A DNA stretch of 64,000 nucleotides from Gloeomargarita lithophora Alchichica-D10 (GTDB lineage: Bacteria; Cyanobacteriota; Cyanobacteriia; Gloeomargaritales; Gloeomargaritaceae). Positions 5,875-48,222 of the stretch are shown here, piece after piece. A program made the translations under genes and the position numbers. Numbering within the stretch: the stretch's first letter is position 1; the number at the start of each line of letters is the position of its first letter. The stretch spans positions 1,929,791 to 1,993,790 of the forward strand of contig NZ_CP017675.1 of assembly GCF_001870225.1 (NCBI RefSeq), read 5' to 3'. Below the pieces are notes generated by a model. The model was not told the origin of the DNA and did not search any database. It was given only the letters and a program-made list of their open reading frames with translations.

Positions 5875-6783
5875 TTAGCGACTCGATGAACCAAATACCA
5901 AATTTTTGATCAATTTTTTCATTGGTCCAATGCTCCTTTGTATTTTGTTGCGGGCATCAAAAAATTTCTGTTGCAGTTTATATTTCATCGTGCGCTCATA
6001 ATAGGGTGTTCCCCCCCACCCAGCCCATTTTCTATAATTTTGTTCCCATTGGGGAAAATCCCAGCCATTCCAAAACTTCGGTTGAGCATAAGCGTGAATG
6101 ATTTTAGCATCTTTGGTGTGATCCGTCTGGCTGGGATGACAATCATAGACCAAGGGATGCAAAGACCTTTCCACATCAATATTGAACTCCTGCCAAAGTA
6201 GATTAAACACTCCCGTTTCAGGCAACCATAAAGCCTCTGCATATTCTTCTAAAGCAAAATAGCACCACTCCCACATTTTCTGATGGTCTGGCAGATGATC
6301 CCAGACAATATGAAAAGCTCCATGAAAACTTTCTTTATCCATATCATAATCATCAATTTCTCGATAGAGCATATCTCTAACCTTATTTTTAGCCCAAACC
6401 ACCCGCCATCCTGATGGGCAATCTTTGAACATTTCTGATAAATCCCCTTGAATGAGAATGTCATAGTCTGAAAAGATAACTCGCTCATATTCTTGCAGTA
6501 ATTTTAATGCCTCAAATTTAGAAAATACCATTGATGTAAAATAATTCTGTGCAGAATCACTCAATTTTGAAATTTTAATTGGAAAATTATATTCATAGAA
6601 TTTGGTGGGTAAAATGCGATTGAGAAGCTTTTTATCTTTGTCATTGATACCATTGTGAAAAATAACAATCTCATCAACAAAATCTGGGCAGTATTTTTTA
6701 ATATCCATCATCACCGATGCCGTGGCAAAGGTGAAATTAGCAGTAAAACCAAATGCCCAGCAGTTCTTTTTAGTTTTTTTCAT
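5875..6783 (-). CDS. Glycosyltransferase, GT8-like
   Basis: 302 residues. An N-terminal Rossmann-like half contains the motif VIFSDYDILIQGDLSEMF (about 100-117). This is the DxD metal and nucleotide-sugar site with the ..GDL.. follow-up typical of GT8 transferases. Later HPLVYDCHP and AKIIHAYAQPKFW include the His-rich end seen in GT8 enzymes. The C-terminus is basic (KKLIKNLVF). The start ATG overlaps the stop of the upstream capsule-type gene (ATGA), so the two are coupled. Donor and acceptor are unknown. The DNA is clearly more A+T-rich than the surrounding genes, which suggests transfer of this pair. Confidence 0.75.
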   Translation of the reverse strand: MKKTKKNCWAFGFTANFTFATASVMMDIKKYCPDFVDEIVIFHNGINDKDKKLLNRILPTKFYEYNFPIKISKLSDSAQNYFTSMVFSKFEALKLLQEYERVIFSDYDILIQGDLSEMFKDCPSGWRVVWAKNKVRDMLYREIDDYDMDKESFHGAFHIVWDHLPDHQKMWEWCYFALEEYAEALWLPETGVFNLLWQEFNIDVERSLHPLVYDCHPSQTDHTKDAKIIHAYAQPKFWNGWDFPQWEQNYRKWAGWGGTPYYERTMKYKLQQKFFDARNKIQRSIGPMKKLIKNLVFGSSSR

Positions 6784-8495
6784 GATTTGGGTGCTGATTT
6801 TAGAATAGATGCGCTAGAGTTGGTCGCATCAACGCTTCCCGAACTGAATTGAGCTAAATACTGCCCGATGGAATCCGTTAAATTGTTCATAGTCTGTGCA
6901 ACTGGCATAGGGACGATCCCTTCGTAATAAAAGTTAAGATTTAACAAAAAACAAGTTTCATCAAGGGCTTTTAGAAATAACTTCAATTGATGTGGATCGG
7001 GCTTAAAGTTTTCATAAATAATTTTGTGGATGGCTTTTTGGCAGTCTTCAAGGGTAGAAATCTGCAAGACCCCAGGGGCATATTGATAAACATAATGGCC
7101 AAACATAAGTACTGGCTTACCTTTGAAAAGAGCTTCCCAGCCCACGGTACCAGTGGCTGTAGCCACCGCAAGGGCATGATCTGTGAGGGTAAAAGTGTCA
7201 TAATTCCTAGGGATTAAACGCACATTGGGTATGTTAATTATTTCCTGATAAAACTTAATTGACCGACAGCGAATATCTTGACTGGGATGATCCTTCACAT
7301 AAATCAAAACATCATTGGGAACACAGTAAGCCAAAAGCTGGACTATGAGCAGTTGATTCGCAAAAGCCCCAGCTAAAGGCATGGTTGTCGCTTCGGGTTG
7401 AAAGTGTAGTGCCACATAGATATATTTAGAACTTAAATCAGGTTCCACAGCTTTTTTGTTATAAAACCCGAACAACTCAAGTCGCTCCAAGTTGAGCAAA
7501 ATCTCTCTGCGTTGACTTTCTAACTTTTCTTGCTCTTTCCGTAAGCCTAAAATCCAACGGTTTTTCAGCCGCCGAATCAACCAAACATCTAATGTCAATA
7601 ATCTTAGCCAAAAGTCTGGTTCTTTGAGCTTCGCTGAAACGGTTTCCCAAAAGCTTCCCTTGTGATCAGATGGTTGAGGTTTACGGGGTAACAGCAAATT
7701 GATTAATAATTGCTTGAAAGATAATACTCTATTGATTTGATTTACCTGTGATTCAAGATTTTTGATGAAATTCAAATCATTTGTGTATTCAAAAATATCA
7801 TACATTTTTTTTAGATTGGTCTGGATATAGTCTTTATAAGCCGAACTTTCCATATAAGTCGGTGTGGGTTTCGGGTTCCCTATCTGTCGATCATAGTGCG
7901 CTTGGGTAAGCTTGGAGAATTCAATCTCAAGTTCAGAACTGTCTTGCACTAACTGTTGATATTTAATGTAGATATTGACAGCAGACTCTTCCCAATCCTC
8001 AATCCAGCTAAACATACCGCAAATATGGGTAGGCATCAGACACAAAAATCGAATGGCCTTGAATTTACATAGTTCATAGATAACATGATCATAAACGAGA
8101 TGAGGTACGGCAAAATTGATCACCAAATTGATTTTATATTCATCCAAAAACCAATTCCAATACCGCAAGTGTTTCAGATATGGAAGGCGAGATTGCTGGA
8201 AACCTCGCACCGGATCGAAGGCGAATTCATCATCCATTACTCTAAAAAGTAAAGATTCACAAGCAGACATTTTTTCAATTAAATTTTCATCTAAAGGAGG
8301 AATTTCATGCCAGTTGATATAGTGGTCATACCCACCAAAAATAATTTTATTGAAATCCAAATAATTTATTTTATCATTGGGAATTTGCTGATCGCCAACA
8401 CAAAGACAGTAATCTAAGTCAATCTTTCGACTGAGATTATCCAATATCCATTGGTCACGGTAGGGTTCTGCGGATATGACGATGGCTCGAAACAC
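6780..8495 (-). CDS. Capsule/surface polysaccharide biosynthesis-like protein
   Basis: 571 residues from GTG 8495, chosen because TGGAGG lies 9 bp upstream and because the longer open frame to 9101 is only the antisense-phase shadow of hupE. The C-terminal part (about 350-500) has the pattern of the capsule synthesis / KpsC-like retaining transferase family: YIYVALHFQPEATT, VLIYVKDHPSQD, NVRLIPRNYDTFTL, ATATGTVGWEALFKGKPVLM. The G-T-x-G-x-E block followed by GKPVL is the usual nucleotide-sugar site. The N-terminal 300 residues are charged and helical without a motif I recognise. It is coupled to the GT8 gene. Likely role: assembly of an extracellular or cell-wall glycan in the cytoplasm. Confidence 0.7.
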   Translation of the reverse strand: MFRAIVISAEPYRDQWILDNLSRKIDLDYCLCVGDQQIPNDKINYLDFNKIIFGGYDHYINWHEIPPLDENLIEKMSACESLLFRVMDDEFAFDPVRGFQQSRLPYLKHLRYWNWFLDEYKINLVINFAVPHLVYDHVIYELCKFKAIRFLCLMPTHICGMFSWIEDWEESAVNIYIKYQQLVQDSSELEIEFSKLTQAHYDRQIGNPKPTPTYMESSAYKDYIQTNLKKMYDIFEYTNDLNFIKNLESQVNQINRVLSFKQLLINLLLPRKPQPSDHKGSFWETVSAKLKEPDFWLRLLTLDVWLIRRLKNRWILGLRKEQEKLESQRREILLNLERLELFGFYNKKAVEPDLSSKYIYVALHFQPEATTMPLAGAFANQLLIVQLLAYCVPNDVLIYVKDHPSQDIRCRSIKFYQEIINIPNVRLIPRNYDTFTLTDHALAVATATGTVGWEALFKGKPVLMFGHYVYQYAPGVLQISTLEDCQKAIHKIIYENFKPDPHQLKLFLKALDETCFLLNLNFYYEGIVPMPVAQTMNNLTDSIGQYLAQFSSGSVDATNSSASILKSAPKS

Positions 8496-8536
8496 GCTTA
8501 TTAGCCTCCAAAACGAATAAACCACCCACTTTTGAC

Positions 8537-9136
8537 TCACCCCCCCCCTAGGGCTTGGGTCACAACGTATAATGCCCCCACCAAAATGGCTCCCCCCGCC
8601 CAGCGCATGGTCACCGGGGGACAGTAGCGCCGGATGAATTCCCCTGCGAGTAAACCCAACCCATTCAACCCTAGGGTCGCCAACGCAAACCCCAACCCAT
8701 AGCTCCAGCCCGACACATCCCCCGGCATCTCGGTACCGTGGGCATAGCCGTGAAACAAAGCTAAAAATCCCACCAACGGGGCACTGGCGTACAGGGGCAA
8801 ACGGGTGCCCAGCAGGACTAACAAACCAAAAATCACATCTGAGGCAATAATCGCCGGTTCTACCAATGGCAGAGGCAGACCAACCAACCCCCCAATCGCC
8901 CCCAGGGTCATTACCCCGATAAAGGCCAGGGGCACCGCCCACAGAGCCACCCCCCCCAATTCTACAGCCCACAACCCCACCGCCACCATCGCCAGCAGGT
9001 GATCCAAGCCCCCCAGGGGATGCTCCAAACCATGCCAAAAGCCGTGGGTAGCCCCCGCCTGCACATGGGCAAGAGCCGCCGGAGCGATAAAGAGCCACCA
9101 ACCGAGGGCAAACAGGAGTATTAACCGTGAGCGCAT
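8537..9136 (-). CDS. hupE: HupE/UreJ family membrane protein
   Basis: 199 residues from ATG 9136; ATG 9148 is also possible, while an upstream extension to 9208 would run into the regulator gene. A signal peptide (LILLFALGWWLFIAPAALA) precedes the family signature HVQAGATHGFWHGLEHPLGG followed by DHLLAMVAVGLWA, which contains the conserved His and Asp of HupE/UreJ. About six further hydrophobic helices follow, with a second His motif ALFHGYAHGTE. Family members are nickel or cobalt permeases. It lies 43 bp downstream of the Crp/Fnr gene on the same strand. No hydrogenase or urease genes are visible here, so the metal and client enzyme stay open. Confidence 0.85.
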   Translation of the reverse strand: MRSRLILLFALGWWLFIAPAALAHVQAGATHGFWHGLEHPLGGLDHLLAMVAVGLWAVELGGVALWAVPLAFIGVMTLGAIGGLVGLPLPLVEPAIIASDVIFGLLVLLGTRLPLYASAPLVGFLALFHGYAHGTEMPGDVSGWSYGLGFALATLGLNGLGLLAGEFIRRYCPPVTMRWAGGAILVGALYVVTQALGGG

Positions 9137-9179
9137 TTGCAAAATCATAACCGAGTGCAATACATTTGCGATTCTAACC

Positions 9180-9869
9180 CTATCCGTCCACCAATGCTTC
9201 CAACCCATCCCGGTCGGGTAGGTAAAAATGCTCCGGGTCGGGGCGCACCAACAAGCCCTCCTGTTCGAGCTTTTTCAAAACCCGGGTGACGGTTTCCCGG
9301 GTGAGGCCGCACAAATTCCCCAGTTCCCGGTGGGGCAAATTCGGAATCAGCACCCCCCCTTTTTGCACCTGCCCCTGTCCCTCCGCCAAAAACAACAGGA
9401 CATCCGCCAACCGGGAGCCACTTTCCGATTCCCTGACCTGTAAACGCCGGTTGAGTTGTTGAATGCGTTTGACCAATAACTGCGCCAGACGAAATCCCAC
9501 CTGGGGTTCGGTGTTGATCAAATTCCGAAAATCCTCGGCGGGGATACCCCCCACGGTCACGCCCGTCAAGGTGATCACATCGCTGGAGCGGGGGGAAGAT
9601 TCCAGGCTGGCCATTTCCCCAAACAGATTCCCCGGCCCCAGAATATTTAACGTAATGTCCCGCCCATCCCGAGTGTGGGTGACGATTTTGACCCAGCCTT
9701 GGATGAGCAGATATACACAATCCCCCCAATCCTGTTCCAGCAATAGGGTGGCTCCCGCCGGGTGTTGGCGCATCACCAAACGCTGGCTGGCGCGGTTTTG
9801 AATCGCCGGTGGTAGGCCGTGAAACAATAGGGTGGAGCCGAGAAATTCCGCAAAGGCAGGGGAAGGCAT
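9180..9869 (-). CDS. Crp/Fnr family transcriptional regulator
   Basis: 229 residues. The cyclic-nucleotide-binding-like beta barrel is at about 20-130 ([41 protein letters not shown]), followed by a dimer helix and an HTH_Crp domain ([20 protein letters not shown], then [11 protein letters not shown]). The barrel has GEMASLES at the phosphate-binding cassette position but PRSS rather than the R-S/T-A-S of true cAMP binders, so the ligand is uncertain. It is divergent from mreB with 121 bp between starts, so the two may share a control region, and it is followed by hupE. I do not see the characteristic NtcA helix. Confidence 0.88.
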
Positions 9870-9947
9870 GGGGGGATGGGCGCAACCATTATTTTCCTAT
9901 TGTCGGAGAAATTTGCCTCCCTGCCCAGAGGTTTTGGGAATAAATCT

Positions 9948-13095: not shown

Positions 13096-14115
13096 ATGCT
13101 GGAAGATAAGGCACGCGCTCCCCAAAATAGAACGATTATTCTGAAAGAGGAAGAAAAAGCCAAATATAAACAAAGACTGTTGCAGTTAAATAAACCTGCG
13201 GACTTGCAAGATGTGATTAACCGCACAATTAACCAGGACTTGTTTCAAATAATGGATTTTTTACCAAAAAATTCGGTTGATTTGCTGTTTATTGATCCAC
13301 CGTATAATCTCAATAAAACATTCAATTCCAGTAGTTTTAAGAAGAAAAATTTAGATACATATACGGATTGGCTAGATTTTTGCTTGACTGGTCTTAAGGA
13401 GGTGTTAAAGCCTACCTCTTCTATTTATATATGTTGTGATTGGCAATCCTCACCTGCTGTTTTTGAGGTGGTCAAAGACCGTTTTCAGATTCGTAACCGG
13501 ATTACATGGGAGCGAGAGAAAGGACGTGGTGCTAGTAAAAACTGGAAAAACTCCTCGGAAGATATTTGGTTCTGTACGGTTTCGGATACATACACATTCA
13601 ACGTAGATGCAGTCAAGCTGAAGCGAAAAGTCATTGCTCCCTATACTGTAAATGGCACTCCCAAAGATTGGGATATGACAGAGCAAGGAAACTATAGTTT
13701 GACACATCCTTCTAACCTGTGGACGGATTTGACTGTTCCTTTTTGGTCAATGCCAGAGAATACAGATCATCCGACTCAAAAACCAGAAAAATTGGTTGCT
13801 AAAGTGATTCTTGCCAGTTCTAATGTCGGAGATGTTGTTTTTGATCCTTTTCTTGGCTCAGGAACAACGCCAGTGGTTGCCAAGAAATTGGGCAGACAAT
13901 TCTTTGGCGTAGAGCTTGACGAAATGTATGCTTGCTTAGCTGAAAAACGCCTAGAGATTGCGGAAATTGAACCTGGGATTCAAGGCTACTCCGAAGGAGT
14001 ATTTTGGGAAAGAAATACGCTGAATGAGCAAGTACGTTCTGTTGGCATAAAGCAAAATTCTCACAATGGTATAAAGTCTCAACAGCAAGAGCTTTTTCAG
14101 TCAGGGGAGTCATAA
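13096..14115 (+). CDS. Type II DNA methyltransferase, beta-class N6-adenine/N4-cytosine
   Basis: 339 residues. The catalytic motif IV DPPY is at 67-70 (LLFIDPPYNL). The SAM-binding FxGxG motif comes late (VVFDPFLGSGTTPVVAKKLG, about residue 250, followed by FFGVELD). This motif order defines the beta class of the N4/N6 methylase family, and DPPY rather than SPPY favours N6-adenine. The next gene, 6 bp downstream, encodes the cognate-looking endonuclease remnant. DNA here is A+T-rich compared with its neighbours. The methylase reads as intact, so it may now act as an orphan methyltransferase that still marks its site. Confidence 0.9.
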   Translation: MLEDKARAPQNRTIILKEEEKAKYKQRLLQLNKPADLQDVINRTINQDLFQIMDFLPKNSVDLLFIDPPYNLNKTFNSSSFKKKNLDTYTDWLDFCLTGLKEVLKPTSSIYICCDWQSSPAVFEVVKDRFQIRNRITWEREKGRGASKNWKNSSEDIWFCTVSDTYTFNVDAVKLKRKVIAPYTVNGTPKDWDMTEQGNYSLTHPSNLWTDLTVPFWSMPENTDHPTQKPEKLVAKVILASSNVGDVVFDPFLGSGTTPVVAKKLGRQFFGVELDEMYACLAEKRLEIAEIEPGIQGYSEGVFWERNTLNEQVRSVGIKQNSHNGIKSQQQELFQSGES

Positions 14116-14425
14116 TCCTCTATGGAGAAAAGCCAGATTTTTTACAGTGACAAGTTTAGTGAAGTCCAAGCAGCCATTAGGGAATTTTTGAACTCTCAAG
14201 AAGATTACTTATCAATATCTACCGCAAATAGCCCAAGAGCAGTCGGTGATGCTATTCAAGATATTCTTGGCATTAATCTACAACAAGTACTCGGTGAAGA
14301 CGTTTGTAAAAATTACTCAGCCAACTTCGCCCGCAGAGCTATGGCTGATCTGGCTTTTGAGGATGACAACGGTTTTTACTATGTTATTGATGTAAAGACG
14401 CACAGACTGAGTACGAAATTTAATA

Positions 14426-14522
14426 TAGCAATCCTAATTCAATTTTGAACAGCGGTCGCAGGGGCGCCGCCCCCGTACTTGGTTCTTCTGAATATTTGTT
14501 CGCCAATCGGGTGGGATTGCTA
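14426..14522 (+). mobile_element. Group 1 short insertion, 97 bp, inside the endonuclease
   Basis: Ends TAGCAATCC and GGATTGCTA are perfect 9-bp inverted repeats. TA lies on both sides (14424-14425 and 14523-14524). The core reads GGTCGCAGGGGCGCCGCCCC with a GC-rich hairpin, followed by GTACTTGGTTCTTC and GTTCGCCAATCGGGTGG. Removal with one TA joins AAT to ATG in frame, giving the restored Asn-Met-Pro-Asn of the endonuclease. That makes the ends of the element certain to the base. Confidence 0.9.
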
Positions 14523-14722
14523 TATGCCGAATTTAACTTCCGTAGAGCGACTCACGCGTTTTTACGAGTCGGATAAGAATGTTTTTGCAGTTCTGATGGT
14601 TGCGTATGATATTGAGCAAACCCGCGTAGAAGTTGAAAGGGTTACATTTGTGCCGATTGAGTTTCTAGGGTGGGACTGCTTAACAATTGGAGCTTTGGGT
14701 TGGGGACAAATTCAGATTGCTA

Positions 14723-14824
14723 TAGCTAAACACGTAAAGGTTGACATAATAACATGGGTCGCAGGGCACCGCCCCGCATTGGTTTTCCGAAATCTTGAGA
14801 CGACAACCTTACTCTACTTAGCTA
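14723..14824 (+). mobile_element. Group 2 short insertion, 102 bp, inside the endonuclease
   Basis: Ends are TAGCTAAACACG and, reverse complemented, TAGCTAAGTAGAG; the longer inverted repeat continues to AAGGTTG. TA duplications are 14721-14722 and 14825-14826. The core GGTCGCAGGGCACCGCCCC...TTGGTTTTCCG is that of group 1, but the termini are different. The sequence is base-for-base identical, in reverse orientation, to 61189-61290, which indicates recent movement. Confidence 0.9.
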
Positions 14825-15121
14825 TAACTCTAATACGATAACTGTTAATCCTGGCTACTCACGTAAACAATGGATGTTAGAACTATGTGATACTCTGGCA
14901 GAGTTCTACCCGCGAGAGATGGCTAAAATTGCGGAACGATTGAGTTATTTTAGTAAAGTCAGAGAATTTTGGCTCAACCATTGTGATTAGCCCAGGTATT
15001 GACGTAGCACTAGCCAGCTAACGATACGCCGCTCCTGCTTCAGCTTTTGGTCGTGCGGATGACCTAAGCCTAGGCAATGCGATAAATTAAAAAACCAAAT
15101 CCAAAACGAGCGGTTATTTAG

Positions 15122-41048: not shown

Positions 41049-41969
41049 TTATGCTTGACCTTGGTAAATGTCCATAATTTGTCCCAAAAGTTGGAGCGCA
41101 TCCGCCCGGGGACGTTGGAACGAATTGCGCCCAATAATCGAACCGAACCCGCCCCCGGTCTGGATTGCCCGGATTTCATCGAGTACCACCTTGTCCGCAG
41201 AGGTGGCTCCCCCGGAAAAGATGATGATCCGGCGCCCATTGAAGGTACATTGCACCACATGGCGTACCCGGTCGCTCAAGGTGGCGATGGGAACTTGGGC
41301 TTTTTCATAGACTTTGCGAGCCGCTTCCTGTTCGATGTGTTCGCTGGGCAATTTTACCTTGACGATGTGTGCCCCCAACTGGGCGGCAATCTGGGCGGCG
41401 TAGCCAATCACATCCACGGCGGTTTCCCCCGTGCGACTCAGCCCCGACCCCCGTGCGTAGGACCAAATCACCACCACTAATCCGCATCGTTTGGCTTCGG
41501 CGGCGTAGGCGCGGATTTGTTGGTACATCTCAAACCGATGGGCAGAGCCGGGATAAATCGTAAACCCAATGCCCACACAGCCTAAGCGCAGGGCATCCTC
41601 GACACTACCCGTCAACGCCTGGGTGGGGTCGGGTTCATCCAACAGCACATCATGGTCATTGACCTTCAGAATCAGGGGAATCTCTCCGGCAAAGTCCCGC
41701 ACCCCCGCTTCCAAAAAACCCAGGGGAGCCGCATAGGCATTACATCCAGAGGCAATCGCCAGTTCAAAGTGATAATGGGGGTCGTAGGCGGGGGGATTGG
41801 TGGCAAAACTGCGGGCGGGGCCATGCTCAAACCCCTGATCCACCGGCAGGATCACCATTTTACCCGTTCCCCCCAGACGGCCATGATTGAGCAAACGGGC
41901 TAAATTTGTCAGGGTGCCGGGGTTGTCGCTCCCATACCAACTGAGAATTTCTTTGATGCGTGGTTGCAT
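41049..41969 (-). CDS. Class I fructose-bisphosphate aldolase, DhnA type
   Basis: 306 residues. TIM-barrel DhnA/FbaB family: MVILPVDQGFEHGPARSFA, IPLILKVNDHDVLLDEP, DALRLGCVGIGFTIYPGS, GLVVVIWSYARGSG, AQLGAHIVKVKLPSEH with the Schiff-base Lys of VKVK, RIIIFSGGATSADKV, GSIIGRNSFQRP. Acts in glycolysis, gluconeogenesis and the Calvin cycle. It is convergent with the LCP gene (12 bp between stops). Confidence 0.93.
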   Translation of the reverse strand: MQPRIKEILSWYGSDNPGTLTNLARLLNHGRLGGTGKMVILPVDQGFEHGPARSFATNPPAYDPHYHFELAIASGCNAYAAPLGFLEAGVRDFAGEIPLILKVNDHDVLLDEPDPTQALTGSVEDALRLGCVGIGFTIYPGSAHRFEMYQQIRAYAAEAKRCGLVVVIWSYARGSGLSRTGETAVDVIGYAAQIAAQLGAHIVKVKLPSEHIEQEAARKVYEKAQVPIATLSDRVRHVVQCTFNGRRIIIFSGGATSADKVVLDEIRAIQTGGGFGSIIGRNSFQRPRADALQLLGQIMDIYQGQA

Positions 41970-42319
41970 GGGTATTTACCCCCCAGAGACTAATTTGATT
42001 ATAGATTAAGCCCAGGGTTCAATAGCAATCCAAATTGGGTATGGCTACGCCACGCTAATGCCTACGGCACGCTATCGCTAACGCTATGAGAATAGCGGTC
42101 GCAGGGGCACCCCCGTCCTTGGTTCTGCGGAATTTCTGTATGCCTACGGCACGCAGGCTAACGTAAATCATGTCCTATTGCCATAGCAATCTACACGGGT
42201 TGCCCTTTGCACTTCAGTTGATTACGGTTCACGGTTTCATCCTTTGGTTTACCTTTGATCGCCACTGCTTCTTGCCCATTCTGGCACAGTGTTGAGTGAA
42301 TAACTTGGCTTACAAATGC
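41970..42319. other. Intergenic region holding a rearranged group 1 element
   Basis: 350 bp upstream of the aldolase and downstream of the response regulator. Most of its left half is the group 1 element described separately. From 42190 to 42319 there is no supported gene; a 39-codon minus-strand frame with a coding-like tail (KGKPKDETVNRNQLKCKGQP) is too short to call. Confidence 0.5.
42023..42190 (+). mobile_element. Rearranged group 1 element with nested short dispersed repeats
   Basis: The left end TAGCAATCC (42023) is followed by GGCTACGCCACGCTAATGCC and TACGGCACGCTATCGCTAAC, a well-known type of cyanobacterial short dispersed repeat. Then comes the core GCGGTCGCAGGGGCACCCCC and CCTTGGTTCTGCGG, then another CCTACGGCACGC. 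Instead of an inverted right end, a second direct TAGCAATC occurs at 42184. No TA duplication is visible, so ends are approximate. Confidence 0.6.
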
Positions 42320-42976
42320 CTATTTTTTAGGCTTACTTGTTTGCAACGCAACAATTACCAGTTGGGTGCGACTGCGGAGATTTAGCCGATTCAGAATATT
42401 AGTAACATTGTTTTTAACCGTTTTCTCAGAAATATAGAGAGCCTGGGCGATTTCCCGATTGCTTGCGCCCTGCACAATCCAATTCACAATGTCTTGCTCC
42501 CGTGGAGTTAACTGCTGCCAATCCACATTGTAATCAGTCGTGGGATCGGCTGAGTTTGATGTCATCGGTTGCTGAAAAACTGCACTAGAAAGCCCTGGAC
42601 CAATCTGGGTATAACCCTTCAGCACCAAGTGAATGGCTTGGGCTAATTCCTCAAAGGGAGTATTTTTTAGCAGATAGCCCGCTGCTCCCATCTGAAGTGC
42701 CTGGGTCACGTATTCCTGGTTCGGAAAAGTGGTTAGCACCAGAACCCGAGTTTTAGGAAACCGTTGACAGATTTCACGAGTTCCGGCAACTCCATCCACA
42801 ATGGGCATTTGTACGTCCATTAACACCACATCTGGTTGCAACTGTTCTACCAGTTCCACCGCCTCTTGCCCATTGCTCCCCTCTCCCACCACCGCAAACT
42901 CGGCATCGGTTTCGAGCAACGCTTTCAACCCACGCCGAACCAGACTTTGATCATCCACGAGCAATAAACGAATCAT
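42320..42976 (-). CDS. NarL/LuxR-type response regulator
   Basis: 218 residues. The receiver domain has the acidic pair LLLVDDQ, phospho-acceptor Asp54 in VVLMDVQMP, Thr in VLVLTTF and Lys in YLLKNTPF. The C-terminal LuxR domain contains LTPREQDIVNWIVQGASNRE and ALYISEKTVKNNVTNIL. It starts 6 bp after the histidine kinase stop, so the two form one operon. Codon texture lacks the G/C runs of the surrounding genome. Confidence 0.95.
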   Translation of the reverse strand: MIRLLLVDDQSLVRRGLKALLETDAEFAVVGEGSNGQEAVELVEQLQPDVVLMDVQMPIVDGVAGTREICQRFPKTRVLVLTTFPNQEYVTQALQMGAAGYLLKNTPFEELAQAIHLVLKGYTQIGPGLSSAVFQQPMTSNSADPTTDYNVDWQQLTPREQDIVNWIVQGASNREIAQALYISEKTVKNNVTNILNRLNLRSRTQLVIVALQTSKPKK

Positions 42977-42982
42977 AGTTTC

Positions 42983-44164
42983 CTACTGTTTGATTGGCAG
43001 ACAAACCTCAACTCGACATCCCTGTTCAGGTGCTGAGATGATTTTAATCTCCCCTGCCAGGGCTTGTACCCGTTCCCGCATTCCTTGCAAACCGAAACCA
43101 GTTGTGTTTTTTTGCAGATCAAAGCCTTTACCATTATCTGCGATGGTGATTTGAATCTGTTGGTTGCAGTGTTGCACAAGTACAGTTACGGCAGTGGTAC
43201 TGGCGTATTTGCAACAATTGGTCAGGCTTTCTTGCACAATCCGAAAAATGGCCAGGTTGTACGCCTGGGGTAAGGGTTGAGCCAGGTGAATATCCAAAGC
43301 CGGTAAAACGCCAGTTAAGCGGTAGAAATGATCGACCAGGGTTGTGATCGCCTCCGGCAAAGACTTTTCCCCCAGAGGATCGGTTCGGAGCGTAGCAACG
43401 GATTGGCTGACCTCGGCTAGGGTCTGTGCGCCCAGTTGTTTCAATTCCAGTAGCAGGGCTTCGGCCTCGGTGGGTTTAGTTTTCTGGAGACGAATTGCGG
43501 CTTCCAAGTGAAAGTTAAAGGCGGTGAGGGAATGACCCAGGGAGTCATGAATGTCACGGGCAATTCGGTTGCGTTCCTGCATTGTTGCCAACTCTTCTAC
43601 TTTCAAGGCATATTCTTGTAAACGCACATTTGCTGCTGCCAGAGCATCACGGCTTCTACGTTCTGTTATGACTGCGTCAACGAATAACTGCAAAAACAGA
43701 ATGACTAATCCAAAAATGACCAGGGAACCAAACCAGAACACCTCAAACTGATTCGGTTCAATGTGAAAGGGATAGACTCTTCGATTCCACAGGCAAAAGG
43801 CACAGGTAACAAGGGTCAGGACAGTAGTCAGGGTGCGATTGCGCCCTTGAAACAAGACACAATTGCGAATCACCAGAATAATGAATAGCAGTTGAAATAC
43901 GGGAATCTGTCCCACCAGTGCCAGCAACACAATCAAGCCAAGTTGGGTGGCGGTATAGAACCATTTCTGCCACTTAGAAGTGGGTGATACCCATCCGATT
44001 GCGGCAAATAAAATCACTCCCAGTTCATTCCAGACGGGAGGTCCGAAGGGGTAGGGAGAAAGGTGAGACAGGGACACCACGACCAGAACAACCCCCAACA
44101 AGAGCCATTCCAGCCACAGGAGTAAGGGGAGCGGGAAGGAGCAGGATAGGTGGCGCAATCTCAT
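42983..44164 (-). CDS. Sensor histidine kinase, HisKA_3 (NarX/DesK-like)
   Basis: 393 residues from ATG 44164. Five or six membrane helices occupy about 1-155 (LLLWLEWLLLGVVLVVVSLS, ILFAAIGWV, LGLIVLLALVGQIPVFQLLF and others), then a coiled linker (VRLQEYALKVEELATMQ), the H-box ERNRIARDIHDSLGHSLTAF with the phospho-His, and an HATPase_c domain (VQESLTNCCKYA, IADNGKGFD, GFGLQGMRERVQALAG). The membrane sensor has no known ligand-binding motif. Its regulator follows directly; the Spy-like gene is divergent, 148 bp away. Confidence 0.93.
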   Translation of the reverse strand: MRLRHLSCSFPLPLLLWLEWLLLGVVLVVVSLSHLSPYPFGPPVWNELGVILFAAIGWVSPTSKWQKWFYTATQLGLIVLLALVGQIPVFQLLFIILVIRNCVLFQGRNRTLTTVLTLVTCAFCLWNRRVYPFHIEPNQFEVFWFGSLVIFGLVILFLQLFVDAVITERRSRDALAAANVRLQEYALKVEELATMQERNRIARDIHDSLGHSLTAFNFHLEAAIRLQKTKPTEAEALLLELKQLGAQTLAEVSQSVATLRTDPLGEKSLPEAITTLVDHFYRLTGVLPALDIHLAQPLPQAYNLAIFRIVQESLTNCCKYASTTAVTVLVQHCNQQIQITIADNGKGFDLQKNTTGFGLQGMRERVQALAGEIKIISAPEQGCRVEVCLPIKQ

Positions 44165-44312
44165 AGGATTCGGCAACGTTCTATTCTCTACGTTAAGGCT
44201 TGTACGGCGATCTGATCGGGACAAAATCCCGGTTAAGTTGGGACTTTGTGCTCTATTGCCAGTGGTTTTACTACTTTTATATTAGAGATATGCACTGAAG
44301 GAGTAAATTACA

Positions 44313-44756
44313 ATGTACAAAGGATGGATGGCTCTGATGTTTAGTATTCCGATTGTGGTTGCACCGATCGTTACAACCGTTGCCCAGGCGGAACCTGCTG
44401 CGGTTACAACCATTGCCCAGGCGAAACCTGCCTCTGTGACACAGTTATTTCCTGCCCTAGAGGGAATCCAACTTACCCCAGAACAGCAGGTACGACTGAC
44501 AGCGTTGAATAACCAGACATTGACTCAAATCCAAAGGGTGCTCACCCCTGAGCAACAAAGCCAGTTTTATGCCGCTCTCAGCCAGGGTAAAGGCCTGCAA
44601 AATGCCATCTCGTCTGTCAATTTATCGATCCGCCAGCGAATGAGCTTGCGCGATCAGTTGCAAAATACCCGCTCCCAACTCAACCAAATATTGACTCCAG
44701 AGCAACAACAACAATTGTCTAAAAAGGCACAGGCTCTACAAAATCAAAACCGCTAA
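44313..44756 (+). CDS. Secreted Spy/CpxP-like small protein
   Basis: 147 residues, ATG 44313 after GAAGGAG. A signal peptide (GWMALMFSIPIVVAPIVTTV then AQA) contains a tandem duplication: TTVAQAEPAAV / TTIAQAKPASV. The mature part is helical, Q-rich and has LTPEQQVRLTALNNQTL, VLTPEQQSQFYAALSQ and ILTPEQQQQLSKKAQ, the LTPEQ repeats of Spy/CpxP-like periplasmic proteins. Spy-type chaperones are often targets of an adjacent envelope-sensing two-component system, which matches the divergent kinase here. Confidence 0.75.
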   Translation: MYKGWMALMFSIPIVVAPIVTTVAQAEPAAVTTIAQAKPASVTQLFPALEGIQLTPEQQVRLTALNNQTLTQIQRVLTPEQQSQFYAALSQGKGLQNAISSVNLSIRQRMSLRDQLQNTRSQLNQILTPEQQQQLSKKAQALQNQNR

Positions 44757-44886
44757 ATCAATTTGGTGTTGCTGAATTGACCGATGAAATCGGAGCACAG
44801 TGAATTAGAGTAAAGTTTTAATTCACTGTGCTATTCAACACCATTTTAGTTTGATTGCGAATGCAAATAGCAATTAGGAGAAACCT

Positions 44887-45597
44887 ATGCTGAAACGATT
44901 TGAAGAGCTGAGCCGTACCGTTCGCAATCTACATTCTGTTATAGATTTGCTCAAGTCAATGGGGCAAAACACCGACAGCGTATTTGACATTGAAGATAAC
45001 TTTCGGGGCAGCAATCAGATGAAAGTCTGTGTCGATCGGGTCAAGGTAATTCCTGAAGCCCGCACGCTAATGGAAAGTCGTTATCTTGGGCCAGCAATCG
45101 ATCTTGAAGCCCTATCTCAATTGTCCCACGGCACCCTCGGTCATACCTATGCCACGGTGATGAAAGCACTGGACTTTGACCCAAATTTCTTCCGCCAGCG
45201 TGATATTAAAACGGATGAAGATTGGTTGACCCTACGCCTTCGCAAAACCCACGATCTCGTCCACCTGGTGACGGGATTTGGGCCTACGGGCGGAGAGTTG
45301 GGTGTGCTTTCTATTCAAGCAGTGCAGATTGGCTATCCAAGTTCTGTACTGCTTCAGGTGGCCAGCATGGGGATGGCGCTGAAGCAACAACCGGCAAGAC
45401 TTCCAGAGTTAACCCAGCAAGTAGCGAGAGGCATGGGGATGGCAATCCAAATGCAGCCACTCATTGCTCAGCGATGGGAGGACGGTTGGGATAAGCCTCT
45501 ACGTCAGTGGCGCGAGGACTTGAATATTACGAATCCGGTGATTGAGGAACCCTACAGCATGAAAAATCGCTTGCCCAATCTCGCTCTAGATTGGTAA
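44887..45597 (+). CDS. Coq4 family protein
   Basis: 236 residues, ATG 44887 after AGGAGAAACC. The diagnostic Coq4 metal motif is intact: LRKTHDLVHLVTGFGPTGGE, giving HDxxH followed 11 residues later by Glu. The preceding LSHGTLGHTYATVMKALDFD and the FDIEDNFRGSNQM region also fit. Mitochondrial Coq4 acts in ubiquinone ring modification; bacterial homologues are less studied, and cyanobacteria make plastoquinone rather than ubiquinone, so the substrate is open. It is followed by the sterol desaturase gene on the same strand. Confidence 0.85.
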   Translation: MLKRFEELSRTVRNLHSVIDLLKSMGQNTDSVFDIEDNFRGSNQMKVCVDRVKVIPEARTLMESRYLGPAIDLEALSQLSHGTLGHTYATVMKALDFDPNFFRQRDIKTDEDWLTLRLRKTHDLVHLVTGFGPTGGELGVLSIQAVQIGYPSSVLLQVASMGMALKQQPARLPELTQQVARGMGMAIQMQPLIAQRWEDGWDKPLRQWREDLNITNPVIEEPYSMKNRLPNLALDW

Positions 45598-45692
45598 ACC
45601 AATTACTGACATCCGCCCCTATCCCACCACCCGGCTCTTCGCTATCTCCAGCTTCCCACCTTCCCCTATCCCCCTTTTTCTTCCCACTGGTT

Positions 45693-46508
45693 ATGCAATA
45701 CGTTGTCACTCATCGTTTTTACTGGGTCTTTTTTGGATTAATTCTGGTTGAGTTCATCTTGGTTCAGCGCAGTCACCGCTATCGCTATTCCTGGAAAGAA
45801 AGCCTGGCATCTCTGGGAGTTGCGATCGGTCATGGCGTTACAGGAGCTTTGTTCAAGCCAATTTTGCTGGCTCCACTAATGTGGGTATGGAATCAACGGT
45901 TATTTACCTTGCCCCTCAACGGTGTTTGGGATTTCCTGTTGCTGTTTATTGGAATTGAATTTTTCTACTACTGGTATCATCGGGCAAGCCATGAGGTGCG
46001 CTGGTTTTGGGCAACTCATGCAGTCCATCACTCTGCAAAACATTTGAACCTGTCTGCGGCATACCGTCTGGGCTGGACTGGTTTATTGTCGGGTTACATC
46101 CTGTTTTTCCTGCCCCTGATCTGGTTGGGGGTTCACCCGCTCGCCCTCCTCACGGGTTTGTCCCTGAATTTGATTTACCAGTTCTGGATTCACACCGAAC
46201 TGGTGCCAAAACTGGGGGTTTTGGAGTGGTTCCTGAATACCCCCTCCCACCATCGAGTCCACCACGCTGCCAATTCGGAATATATCGATCGTAATTATGG
46301 CGGTGTTTTAATTATTTTTGATCGCTGGTTCGGTACGTTCACCAGTGAAAAGCCAGATTGTCCTGCATTCTACGGATTAACTCATCCACTCCGGTCTTAT
46401 AACCCCGTGACTATCGCCTTTTATGAATGGAGGAGATTGTTTCAAGACCTGGTAACTGCCAGGTCTTGGCGCAATCGTTGCCGTGTGATCTTAGGGCGAC
46501 CTACCTAA
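45693..46508 (+). CDS. Sterol desaturase/fatty acid hydroxylase family protein
   Basis: 271 residues from ATG 45693; upstream in-frame codons form an unlikely P/S-rich stretch. The eight-histidine di-iron motif is complete: YYWYHRASHEVRW, ATHAVHHSAKHLN and PSHHRVHHAANSEYIDRNYG, the last two giving HxVHHS and HHRVHH. Four or more membrane helices surround them. Family enzymes hydroxylate or desaturate lipids, sterols or carotenoids using O2. Its original stop overlapped the convergent radical SAM stop before a short element moved in. Confidence 0.9.
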   Translation: MQYVVTHRFYWVFFGLILVEFILVQRSHRYRYSWKESLASLGVAIGHGVTGALFKPILLAPLMWVWNQRLFTLPLNGVWDFLLLFIGIEFFYYWYHRASHEVRWFWATHAVHHSAKHLNLSAAYRLGWTGLLSGYILFFLPLIWLGVHPLALLTGLSLNLIYQFWIHTELVPKLGVLEWFLNTPSHHRVHHAANSEYIDRNYGGVLIIFDRWFGTFTSEKPDCPAFYGLTHPLRSYNPVTIAFYEWRRLFQDLVTARSWRNRCRVILGRPT

Positions 46509-46515
46509 TCAGCTA

Positions 46516-46635
46516 TAGCAATCCTAATTGAATATGGCTACGCCACGCTATCGCTATGAGAACAGCCGTCGCAGAGGCACTGCCCCCGTAATTAGTTTTT
46601 CTGAATATTTGTTCTTTAATCAGATAGGACTGCTA
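46516..46635 (+). mobile_element. Group 1 short insertion, 120 bp, with nested dispersed repeat
   Basis: Ends TAGCAATCC and AGGACTGCTA; TA duplications at 46514-46515 and 46636-46637. Between left end and core lies GGCTACGCCACGCTATCGCT, absent from the 97-bp copies. The core is GCCGTCGCAGAGGCACTGCC, more diverged than in other copies. Its last three bases form the stop codon of the minus-strand radical SAM gene. Confidence 0.8.
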
Positions 46636-48222
46636 TAGAGAAGTCACCGGCACCAACACCATTTCATCGGCCTGTAAAACCTCCTCTAATTGCATCTCAA
46701 TATCACGCCGGACAATTTGCCGATATTCCAAAAAATGTTCCGCCTGGGCACACACGGAAAGATAGCTACTCACCACCTGGGGATACCGCCACAATATATG
46801 CCCCAAATACAGCCAAAATTGCCAACGGGTGGCACGTTTTATTCCCTGCCGCCAACACAGAATCAATAATGCCCGCACATACACCCAATTGATCGGAGTT
46901 TTTTCTGAGGATTTCGACCGTTTTTGATAGCGTTTCCGGCGGGCTTCGCCAAGTATTAAGTAATGTTCGTAGGTGCGTTTTAGCATAGATTCCGGTTCAT
47001 ACAAATGCCAAAAGGCATCAATAAATTCCCGGGTGACTTCCGCGAGGGAACGGGTGGGGGCAAAATTCATCAAGGTCGCCTGGTGAATATCCCCTTTCCC
47101 ATTCAATAAACGGCCTTCTTTTTGCAAACGATGCCACAGAGCCGTATCTGGTAGGGCTTGCAACATACTCAGCATCGCCGTGGGGATGGCCGTATCCTGC
47201 ACAAATTCCACAATCCGTTGCCCCGCCCCCCGTTTTTCCCCATCAAAACCAATGATAAACCCAGCCATGATGCGTAAACCCGACCGGGCAATGGTGAGTA
47301 CCGATTCCCGCAAGGGGTCACGGTTATTTTGAAATTTGCGGGTGCGTTCTAGGCTATCCGTATCGGGGGTTTCAATCCCCAAAAATACGGTGCCAAAATT
47401 ACAGGCCACCATCAAGTCCATCAACTCCTGGTCTTCAGCCAAATTCACCGAGGCTTCCGTGCCAAAGGAAAAGGGATAGTTGTGGGCTTCTAACCAGGGT
47501 TTGAGTGCCTGCAAAAAGAGTTTGACATTGCGTTTATTGCCAATAAAATTATCATCCACTACAAAAACACTTTTGCGCCAACCCAAATCATACAAACATT
47601 GCAATTCGGCTAATAATTGCTCTGGGGTTTTGGTGCGGGGTTTGCGCCCATAAAGCACGATAATATCGCAAAATTCACACTGAAATGGACAACCGCGGGA
47701 AAATTGCACGGACATTTCTGCGTAGGCATCCATTTCTAACAAATCAAACCGGGGCACAGGCGTTGTTGTCACCGCCGGTTTTTCCCCATTCGCCCTGAAC
47801 GTACCACGGGTGTCCCCCCGCTCCAAAGCGGTCACCAGCAGGGGCAGGGTAATTTCCCCTTCATCTAAGACGAGAAAATCCGCTCCGGCCGCCGCCGCCT
47901 CTTCGGGTAACGCTGTGGCATAGGGTCCGCCAACGGCAACCAATTTACCCCGTTGTTTGGCGCACTGAATTTGGCGAGCAAAATCCTCTTTCTGCACAAT
48001 CATGGCCGAGACAATCACCACGTCCGCCCAATCCCATTCCGCCTCGGTGACTTCCCGCACGTTGCGATCCACCAACTTAAATTCCCAGGTTTGGGGCAAA
48101 AGTGCCGCCACCGTTACCATGCCCAGAGGGGGTAATTGCGCCTTGAGATTGATTAACTTGAGGGTGTTTTCAAAAGACCAAAAACTTTGGGGAAATTCGG
48201 GATAAATCAGCAGAACACGCAT
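46633..48222 (-). CDS. B12-binding domain radical SAM protein
   Basis: 529 residues from ATG 48222. The N-terminal cobalamin-binding-like domain (VLLIYPEFPQSFWSFENTL, VVAVGGPYATALPEEAAAAG, ADFLVLDEGEITLPLLVTAL) is followed by the radical SAM cluster motif SRGCPFQCEFCDIIVLYGRK (CxxxCxxC) and DDNFIGNKRNVKLFLQAL. The C-terminal DUF4070-like part (YEHYLILGEARRKRYQKRS) completes it. Related proteins include hopanoid methylases and others, and the substrate here is unknown. The present stop is contributed by a short insertion; before insertion the end would have been ...SLAD. Confidence 0.9.
   Translation of the reverse strand: MRVLLIYPEFPQSFWSFENTLKLINLKAQLPPLGMVTVAALLPQTWEFKLVDRNVREVTEAEWDWADVVIVSAMIVQKEDFARQIQCAKQRGKLVAVGGPYATALPEEAAAAGADFLVLDEGEITLPLLVTALERGDTRGTFRANGEKPAVTTTPVPRFDLLEMDAYAEMSVQFSRGCPFQCEFCDIIVLYGRKPRTKTPEQLLAELQCLYDLGWRKSVFVVDDNFIGNKRNVKLFLQALKPWLEAHNYPFSFGTEASVNLAEDQELMDLMVACNFGTVFLGIETPDTDSLERTRKFQNNRDPLRESVLTIARSGLRIMAGFIIGFDGEKRGAGQRIVEFVQDTAIPTAMLSMLQALPDTALWHRLQKEGRLLNGKGDIHQATLMNFAPTRSLAEVTREFIDAFWHLYEPESMLKRTYEHYLILGEARRKRYQKRSKSSEKTPINWVYVRALLILCWRQGIKRATRWQFWLYLGHILWRYPQVVSSYLSVCAQAEHFLEYRQIVRRDIEMQLEEVLQADEMVLVPVTSL

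Follow-up and report, generated by a model that had tools for sequence, protein, structure and literature searches.

A likely acquired two-component, Spy-like and lipid hydroxylase module, with a separately inserted Coq4 gene, in Gloeomargarita lithophora

Why does a cyanobacterial chromosome carry, between two repeats, five adjacent genes that are at odds with their surroundings, and do these genes belong together? The question is raised by the locus at 42320-46508 of a 64,000-nucleotide stretch of Gloeomargarita lithophora Alchichica-D10 (contig NZ_CP017675.1, positions 1,929,791 to 1,993,790; hereafter the window, in whose positions all coordinates are given), which is part of a cyanobacterial chromosome of 3,049,282 bases. 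An earlier note, made from the letters of this stretch alone, had proposed that the five genes, encoding a response regulator (RR), a histidine kinase (HK), a Spy-like periplasmic protein (Spy), a Coq4 homologue (Coq4) and a lipid oxygenase of the fatty-acid-hydroxylase/sterol-desaturase superfamily (FAH), make up an acquired envelope or membrane-lipid response module. Our analysis upholds this proposal for RR, HK, Spy and FAH and departs from it for Coq4. We regard it as probable that the block is an envelope/lipid module, acquired horizontally and governed by a two-component system, and the comparisons described below lend good support to the view that these four genes form one module, of which Coq4 is not a part.

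All five open reading frames (ORFs) are present where the earlier note had placed them. RR (42320..42976, minus strand) is a response regulator of the NarL/FixJ type, as judged from its ORF, its place in the tree, the Response_reg (PF00072) and GerE (PF00196) domains, both above the Pfam cut-off, and the intact receiver Asp/Lys residues, including the acidic pocket and the phospho-Asp. HK (42983..44164, minus strand) is a HisKA_3 membrane sensor kinase with HisKA_3 and HATPase_c domains (Pfam), intact H-box and ATP-binding motifs and a membrane N-terminus; the ORF list starts it at TTG 44224, and its likely start is ATG 44164. It had been described as DesK/NarX-like; among solved structures DesK is, together with VraS, the nearest in sequence, and among the NCBIfam models NarX and NarQ are outscored by UhpB, MctS and LiaS. 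On the plus strand, Spy (44313..44756) is a Spy/CpxP-like (LTXXQ) periplasmic protein, with a PF07813 match of 30.6 bits (Pfam cut-off 24.3), four LTxxQ motifs and a hydrophobic N-terminus. Coq4 (coding sequence 44887-45597) has the Coq4 domain (PF05019, 62.6 bits, Pfam cut-off 22.9), the HDxxH..E motif in the form HDLVH-x10-E, and 3msq and 6e12 as solved relatives. FAH (45693..46508) matches FA_hydroxylase (PF04116) with 103.3 bits (Pfam cut-off 31) and has the histidine boxes HX3H, HX2HH and HX2HH, the box histidines being the same in 20 of 20 clade rows. Its ORF is open from TTG 45591 and a homologue aligns from ATG 45693 onward; the start is probably the ATG, not the TTG, and therefore the overlap of Coq4 and FAH is probably not real.

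The case for a four-gene module rests on lineage-restricted presence, conserved neighbourhood, largely congruent trees and a conserved candidate regulator box. Presence across the phylum was assessed in samples of 386-387 genomes each, drawn from a larger group. HK found a match (E <=1e-40) in 56 of 386 genomes and FAH (E <=1e-10) in 44 of 386; in a second sample FAH matched at E <=1e-40 in 20 of 387. HK-centred regions were fetched from most, not all, of the genomes with HK hits, and a Spy-like gene is divergent from HK in 31 of these 39. A tree of 52 FAH proteins contains a clade of 35 rows (100/98), which splits (94/90) into 15 cyanobacterial and 20 other rows. Among 14 loci of the close cyanobacterial clade, two begin at a contig end; a divergent NarL-type RR-HK pair accompanies FAH in 10 of the remaining 12, one of the ten being interrupted by an apparent transposase. 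In most of the ten, a gene for a small, secreted protein rich in glycine and threonine stands between HK and FAH, and L095 and L281 have Spy besides. The window locus itself combines a divergent NarL-type RR-HK pair and an FAH of the 100/98 clade with a GGAC-type dyad between the divergent genes. In the tree of kinases, one side of a 99/96 branch consists of the HK of the window, eight other FAH-linked kinases and no further HK, and the RR tree resembles that of HK. A test of whether the genes travel together had been asked for; RR-HK does so with FAH, and Coq4 is near FAH in none of the 14 loci.

The control region between the divergent genes (44165..44312, no strand) measures 148 bp, as previously stated, if HK starts at ATG 44164. 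Within it lies a candidate RR box (44218..44244, plus strand), about 100 bases ahead of the Spy start, which consists of the dyad GGGACAAAATCCC, a 9-bp spacer and the half-site GGGAC. A search for a regulator site in this gap had been recommended, and counterparts were found in all nine FAH-linked cyanobacterial gaps examined, as a dyad (A/G)GGAC-N4-GTCC with a second GGAC 22-24 bases on. A different dyad, GACT-N2-AGTC, followed by a half-site, recurs in 21 of 36 HK/Spy-type gaps, the window not among the 21. The combined box pattern has two matches in the whole genome, one of them in the block gap, and arose in 5 of 100,000 shuffled versions of the gap (Markov model), a flattering figure, as the pattern was drawn up after seeing the relatives and the window. 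It is likely that 44218-44244 is a regulator box conserved in position among relatives.

The block also appears foreign to its host. Eight genomes of the order were compared, one of them 83% complete. HK, the DNA of the block and a close Coq4 were each found in only one of the eight, the present genome; the DNA of the radical-SAM flank to the right of the block matched in five, and four other Coq4 matches in the order show 31-39% identity. Measured against the codon usage of the window, four of the five block genes fit less well than 45 of 50 background ORFs, and RR, at rank 12 of 50, is less extreme; of the 51 runs of five contiguous genes in the window, the block has the lowest mean codon fit. 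Runs of GGGG occur at 0-5.6 per kb in the block genes versus a mean of 17. The divergent codon texture reported earlier is thereby borne out. The five genes are real, and both their distribution and their composition mark them as foreign to this lineage.

Several observations weigh against this picture of an acquired four-gene module. Two loci of the FAH clade, L273 and L276, have no two-component system (TCS). The FAH-linked HK of genome G091 stands on the other side of the 99/96 branch, and the RR of G060, which has no linked FAH, falls inside the FAH-linked group. The dyad of the window lacks one base in comparison with those of its relatives and, when scored with a weight matrix trained on ATGACT-type sites, was equalled by 42 of 500 shuffles. 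The single-sequence model of Spy, all helical, is of modest confidence (mean predicted local distance difference test score, pLDDT, 71.2), and its better fold matches, among them STV, CpxP, CnrX and Spy, have E values of 0.1-1, none falling below 0.1. A close donor of RR, HK or FAH was not found: in the comparison with G193 and G091, amino-acid identity is 41-64% and synonymous sites are at or close to saturation, and the best FAH match reaches 64% identity. Plasmids were considered as a vehicle and rejected, since the 11 plasmid records with a relative of HK and the 10 with a relative of Coq4 all show less than 60% identity; of 56 plasmid records with FAH, 28 were opened, the remainder being mostly repeats of the same genera.

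Coq4 has a different history. Its nearest relatives, in Pegethrix, Leptolyngbya PCC 6406, a Leptolyngbyaceae metagenome-assembled genome and Cyanomargarita, share 86-90% amino-acid identity with it, and in DNA it is 90% identical to the Coq4 of a Leptolyngbya-type cassette. This DNA similarity starts at 44864-44871, in the ribosome-binding leader, and stops at the stop codon. The synonymous divergence (dS) of Coq4 from Pegethrix is 0.41, compared with 0.72-0.78 for two flanking genes and the same genus. In three relatives Coq4 is adjoined by a TetR gene and an M48 peptidase gene, and in two also by a BASS-type transporter gene (names read from the sequences of the loci L002, L003, L004 and L005). 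At the threshold applied, neither Spy nor FAH was seen near Coq4 in any of 12 loci of Coq4 relatives. In the block, Coq4 occupies the position where most relatives have the small secreted repeat protein, of which no remnant was found in the two gaps around Coq4 (best E 1.3). A single five-gene transfer unit is rejected, as Coq4 stems from elsewhere and none of the related modules contains it. The extent of DNA homology, the substitution rates and the identities mark Coq4 with its Shine-Dalgarno leader (44871..45597, plus strand) as a single-gene insert from a different cassette, not an original member of the module. With a dS of only about 0.2 among Pegethrix, Leptolyngbya PCC 6406 and Cyanomargarita, the Coq4/TetR/BASS/M48 set looks like a fast-moving cassette.

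Could Coq4 nevertheless be a functional member, with quinone or isoprenoid-lipid remodelling as part of the response? We consider this unlikely, yet the best placed of the alternatives. The gene is intact and under purifying selection (nonsynonymous divergence, dN, 0.045; dS 0.407). In Mastigocoleus testarum (L007:5245-8711), moreover, one of the 12 Coq4 loci, RR and HK genes of the same family face away from a BASS and a Coq4 gene, and the gap between the two pairs holds the box-like dyad GTGACAAAAGTCCT. This Coq4 has therefore come to lie next to this regulator family on two or more occasions, and a functional link is thus possible. The complete lack of Coq4 near the related FAH loci and its company of TetR, M48 and BASS-type genes elsewhere speak against it. 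The human COQ4 has been described as a C1 oxidative decarboxylase (PMC11495197). The block protein resembles COQ4 of coenzyme Q biosynthesis in its domain and HDxxH..E motif, and differs in that members of its clade are accompanied by TetR, BASS-type and M48 genes. The quinone used by cyanobacteria is plastoquinone.

What might the four-gene module do? In the CpxRA-CpxP and ZraSR-ZraP systems, two-component genes are divergent from the gene of a Spy/CpxP-family periplasmic protein. The arrangement around HK is alike, its two-component genes being divergent from a Spy-family gene in most kinase loci, but the block has a HisKA_3 kinase, a NarL-type regulator and an attached lipid hydroxylase. 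Membership in CpxRA-CpxP is rejected, as this requires an OmpR-type regulator. In DesK-DesR-Des of Bacillus, a HisKA_3 membrane kinase is linked to a membrane-lipid desaturase. HK of the block is likewise a HisKA_3 membrane kinase, near DesK by sequence, and linked to a membrane-lipid oxygenase; the enzyme, however, belongs to the FA_hydroxylase superfamily (PF04116) and is not a Des-type acyl desaturase, and periplasmic proteins are added. The ornithine-lipid hydroxylase OlsE, of the same superfamily, is the sole NCBIfam hit of FAH, although with 57.3 bits against a cut-off of 475, so that FAH is not assigned to it. In open-licence PMC articles, judged by titles and the beginnings of abstracts, we recognised no description of this module under a TCS with sterol desaturase, LTXXQ or Coq4 in cyanobacteria, or under DesK and cyanobacterial membrane fluidity.

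Based on these likenesses, we infer a lipid-response function, the likely role of the module being the control of lipid hydroxylation by envelope or membrane stress. VraS and DesK read the state of the envelope or membrane, and CpxP is a feedback partner of its kinase. We hypothesize that the membrane-embedded, DesK/VraS-like HK would sense a membrane or envelope disturbance and phosphorylate RR; bound to the dyad and half-site at 44218-44244, RR would then activate Spy, Coq4 and FAH. Spy would act as a periplasmic chaperone and perhaps, by analogy with CpxP, as a feedback partner of HK. FAH, a histidine-box membrane oxygenase whose boxes are those of iron-dependent hydroxylases, would hydroxylate a membrane lipid. 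Coq4, dropped in behind Spy, would thereby have come under the same control.

The signal might instead be a metal, with the Spy-like protein sensing or buffering metals in the manner of CnrX or ZraP and the module answering metals, not membrane state. The weak fold matches of Spy include CnrX beside CpxP and Spy, and P-type ATPase genes, one annotated as heavy-metal, adjoin two proteobacterial FAH loci. HK, on the other hand, resembles sensors of the membrane or envelope, and the block contains no other metal gene. We judge a metal response improbable, roughly a one-in-five prospect, and somewhat less likely than a functional Coq4.

The envelope/lipid reading is extended by the FAH clade outside the phylum. 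The 20-row sister clade is proteobacterial except for one cyanobacterium (G312). FAH retains divergent sensor genes in both phyla, whereas the family to which these belong differs: a divergent NarL-type TCS accompanies 11 of the 15 cyanobacterial rows and an OmpR-type TCS 13 of the 20 sister rows, never the reverse, and this split amounts to one change on the FAH tree, with none of 500 shuffles as good. The FAH of G312 (L098, G312:C38) groups with alphaproteobacterial ones and its divergent OmpR-type TCS is also of the proteobacterial kind, an apparent cross-phylum transfer of the module. Small EF-hand or repeat proteins are encoded near 9 of 12 proteobacterial OmpR loci, and repeat proteins of this style (TTTRTGPxGN) are also encoded at the cyanobacterial loci L276 and L277. 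None of the small proteins except the EF-hand one has a Pfam match, and their profiles were built on low-complexity sequence, so that homology is uncertain and the evidence weak. AgrRS of Cupriavidus metallidurans is an OmpR-type TCS that controls the small periplasmic PrsQ proteins, a combination like that of the proteobacterial FAH loci; it is not taken as the same locus, as the word "desaturase" is absent from the main text of that article (PMC7380067).

Tentatively, and with a little less than even confidence, we suggest that enzymes of the FAH clade act as the effectors of an envelope-lipid stress module that spans phyla. Its output would be kept and its input swapped (NarL/HisKA_3 in cyanobacteria, OmpR-type in Proteobacteria), it would move between phyla, and new outputs such as Coq4 could be inserted behind its promoter. 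As part of the same tentative reading, the output would consist of secreted small proteins and the lipid hydroxylase, divergent from the sensor genes. If true, a clade of lipid hydroxylases that is so far uncharacterised would be linked to envelope-stress signalling, and a candidate promoter box would already be defined for it. The module would also be a clear-cut natural case of regulation in which the output stays while the sensor family is swapped between phyla.

The neighbourhood of FAH and TCS might, however, be incidental, FAH not being under this TCS at all. No such TCS lies near 7 of the 20 sister rows and 4 of the 15 cyanobacterial rows (two of these cut by contig ends). A TCS is nevertheless close by in 24 of 33 assessable clade rows versus 2 of 17 outside the clade (L219 and L223), a difference with a Fisher p of 6e-5 when kinship is ignored and with only about 1.5 kb of flank for the outside rows L018 and L021. 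With the box conserved in every FAH-linked gap as well, an incidental neighbourhood seems quite improbable. Separately, several more distant cyanobacterial FAHs (L100, L101, L282, L284 and L285) lie directly behind a TetR-like gene, as read from sequence, which is a putative different control of the same superfamily.

Vertical inheritance, in which the block would be ancestral to the order and lost in other lineages, is very improbable: other cyanobacteria do have the module and the genomes of the order compared are few, one of them incomplete, but loss would be needed in all seven others, Coq4 is closer at synonymous sites to Leptolyngbya-type genomes than the flanking genes are to the same genus, and the codon usage is atypical. 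Vertical descent of all five genes, or the lack of a conserved neighbourhood elsewhere, had been named as grounds for giving up the proposal, and we found neither. Gloeomargarita is the lineage usually named as nearest to plastids, and a recent acquisition in it would warn against taking such genes as ancestral.

The block had been described as bounded by two elements of one repeat group, the left one rearranged. By position this is right. The left repeat (42021..42184, ends approximate, plus strand), aligned with five genomic copies, is however an intact member of a long form of about 165 bp with TATAGCAATCC-type ends, diverged here, of which nine near-full-length copies (over at least 160 bp) lie elsewhere in the genome. 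The right repeat (46514..46637, plus strand) is TA-flanked, about 124 bp long and recognised from its genomic copies and from the radical-SAM junction; it has 46 matches in the genome. As both forms are common here, the flanking repeats are weak evidence alone. The radical-SAM gene takes its final codon and its stop from the right repeat, which is why the protein ends in VTSL here and in VTSG in G085 and G389. Without this repeat the stops of FAH and the radical-SAM gene would overlap, as stated earlier, provided that a single copy of the TA target remains. It is plausible, on the basis of this one junction, that the block arrived before the right repeat inserted. Five genes to the right of the block have the same order in the sister genome G389, where synteny breaks at the radical-SAM 3' end. 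An empty-site comparison in the nearest genome, G085, was abandoned, FBA lying at 720,989 and radical SAM at 2,054,839 of contig 1; the left neighbours too are scattered there, so that only the right-hand junction could be placed.

Some minor features remain. The class I aldolase gene to the left of the block (41049-41969) has a DNA-level match only in G085 among the seven other genomes of the order and may itself be accessory. ORFs at 5875-9885 and 13096-14841 of the window have a codon fit as poor as that of the block, and these stretches are possibly further foreign DNA. Between Spy and Coq4 lies a hairpin (44794..44832, plus strand) with a perfect 14-bp stem, an 11-base loop and no T run, possibly a site of mRNA processing or attenuation.

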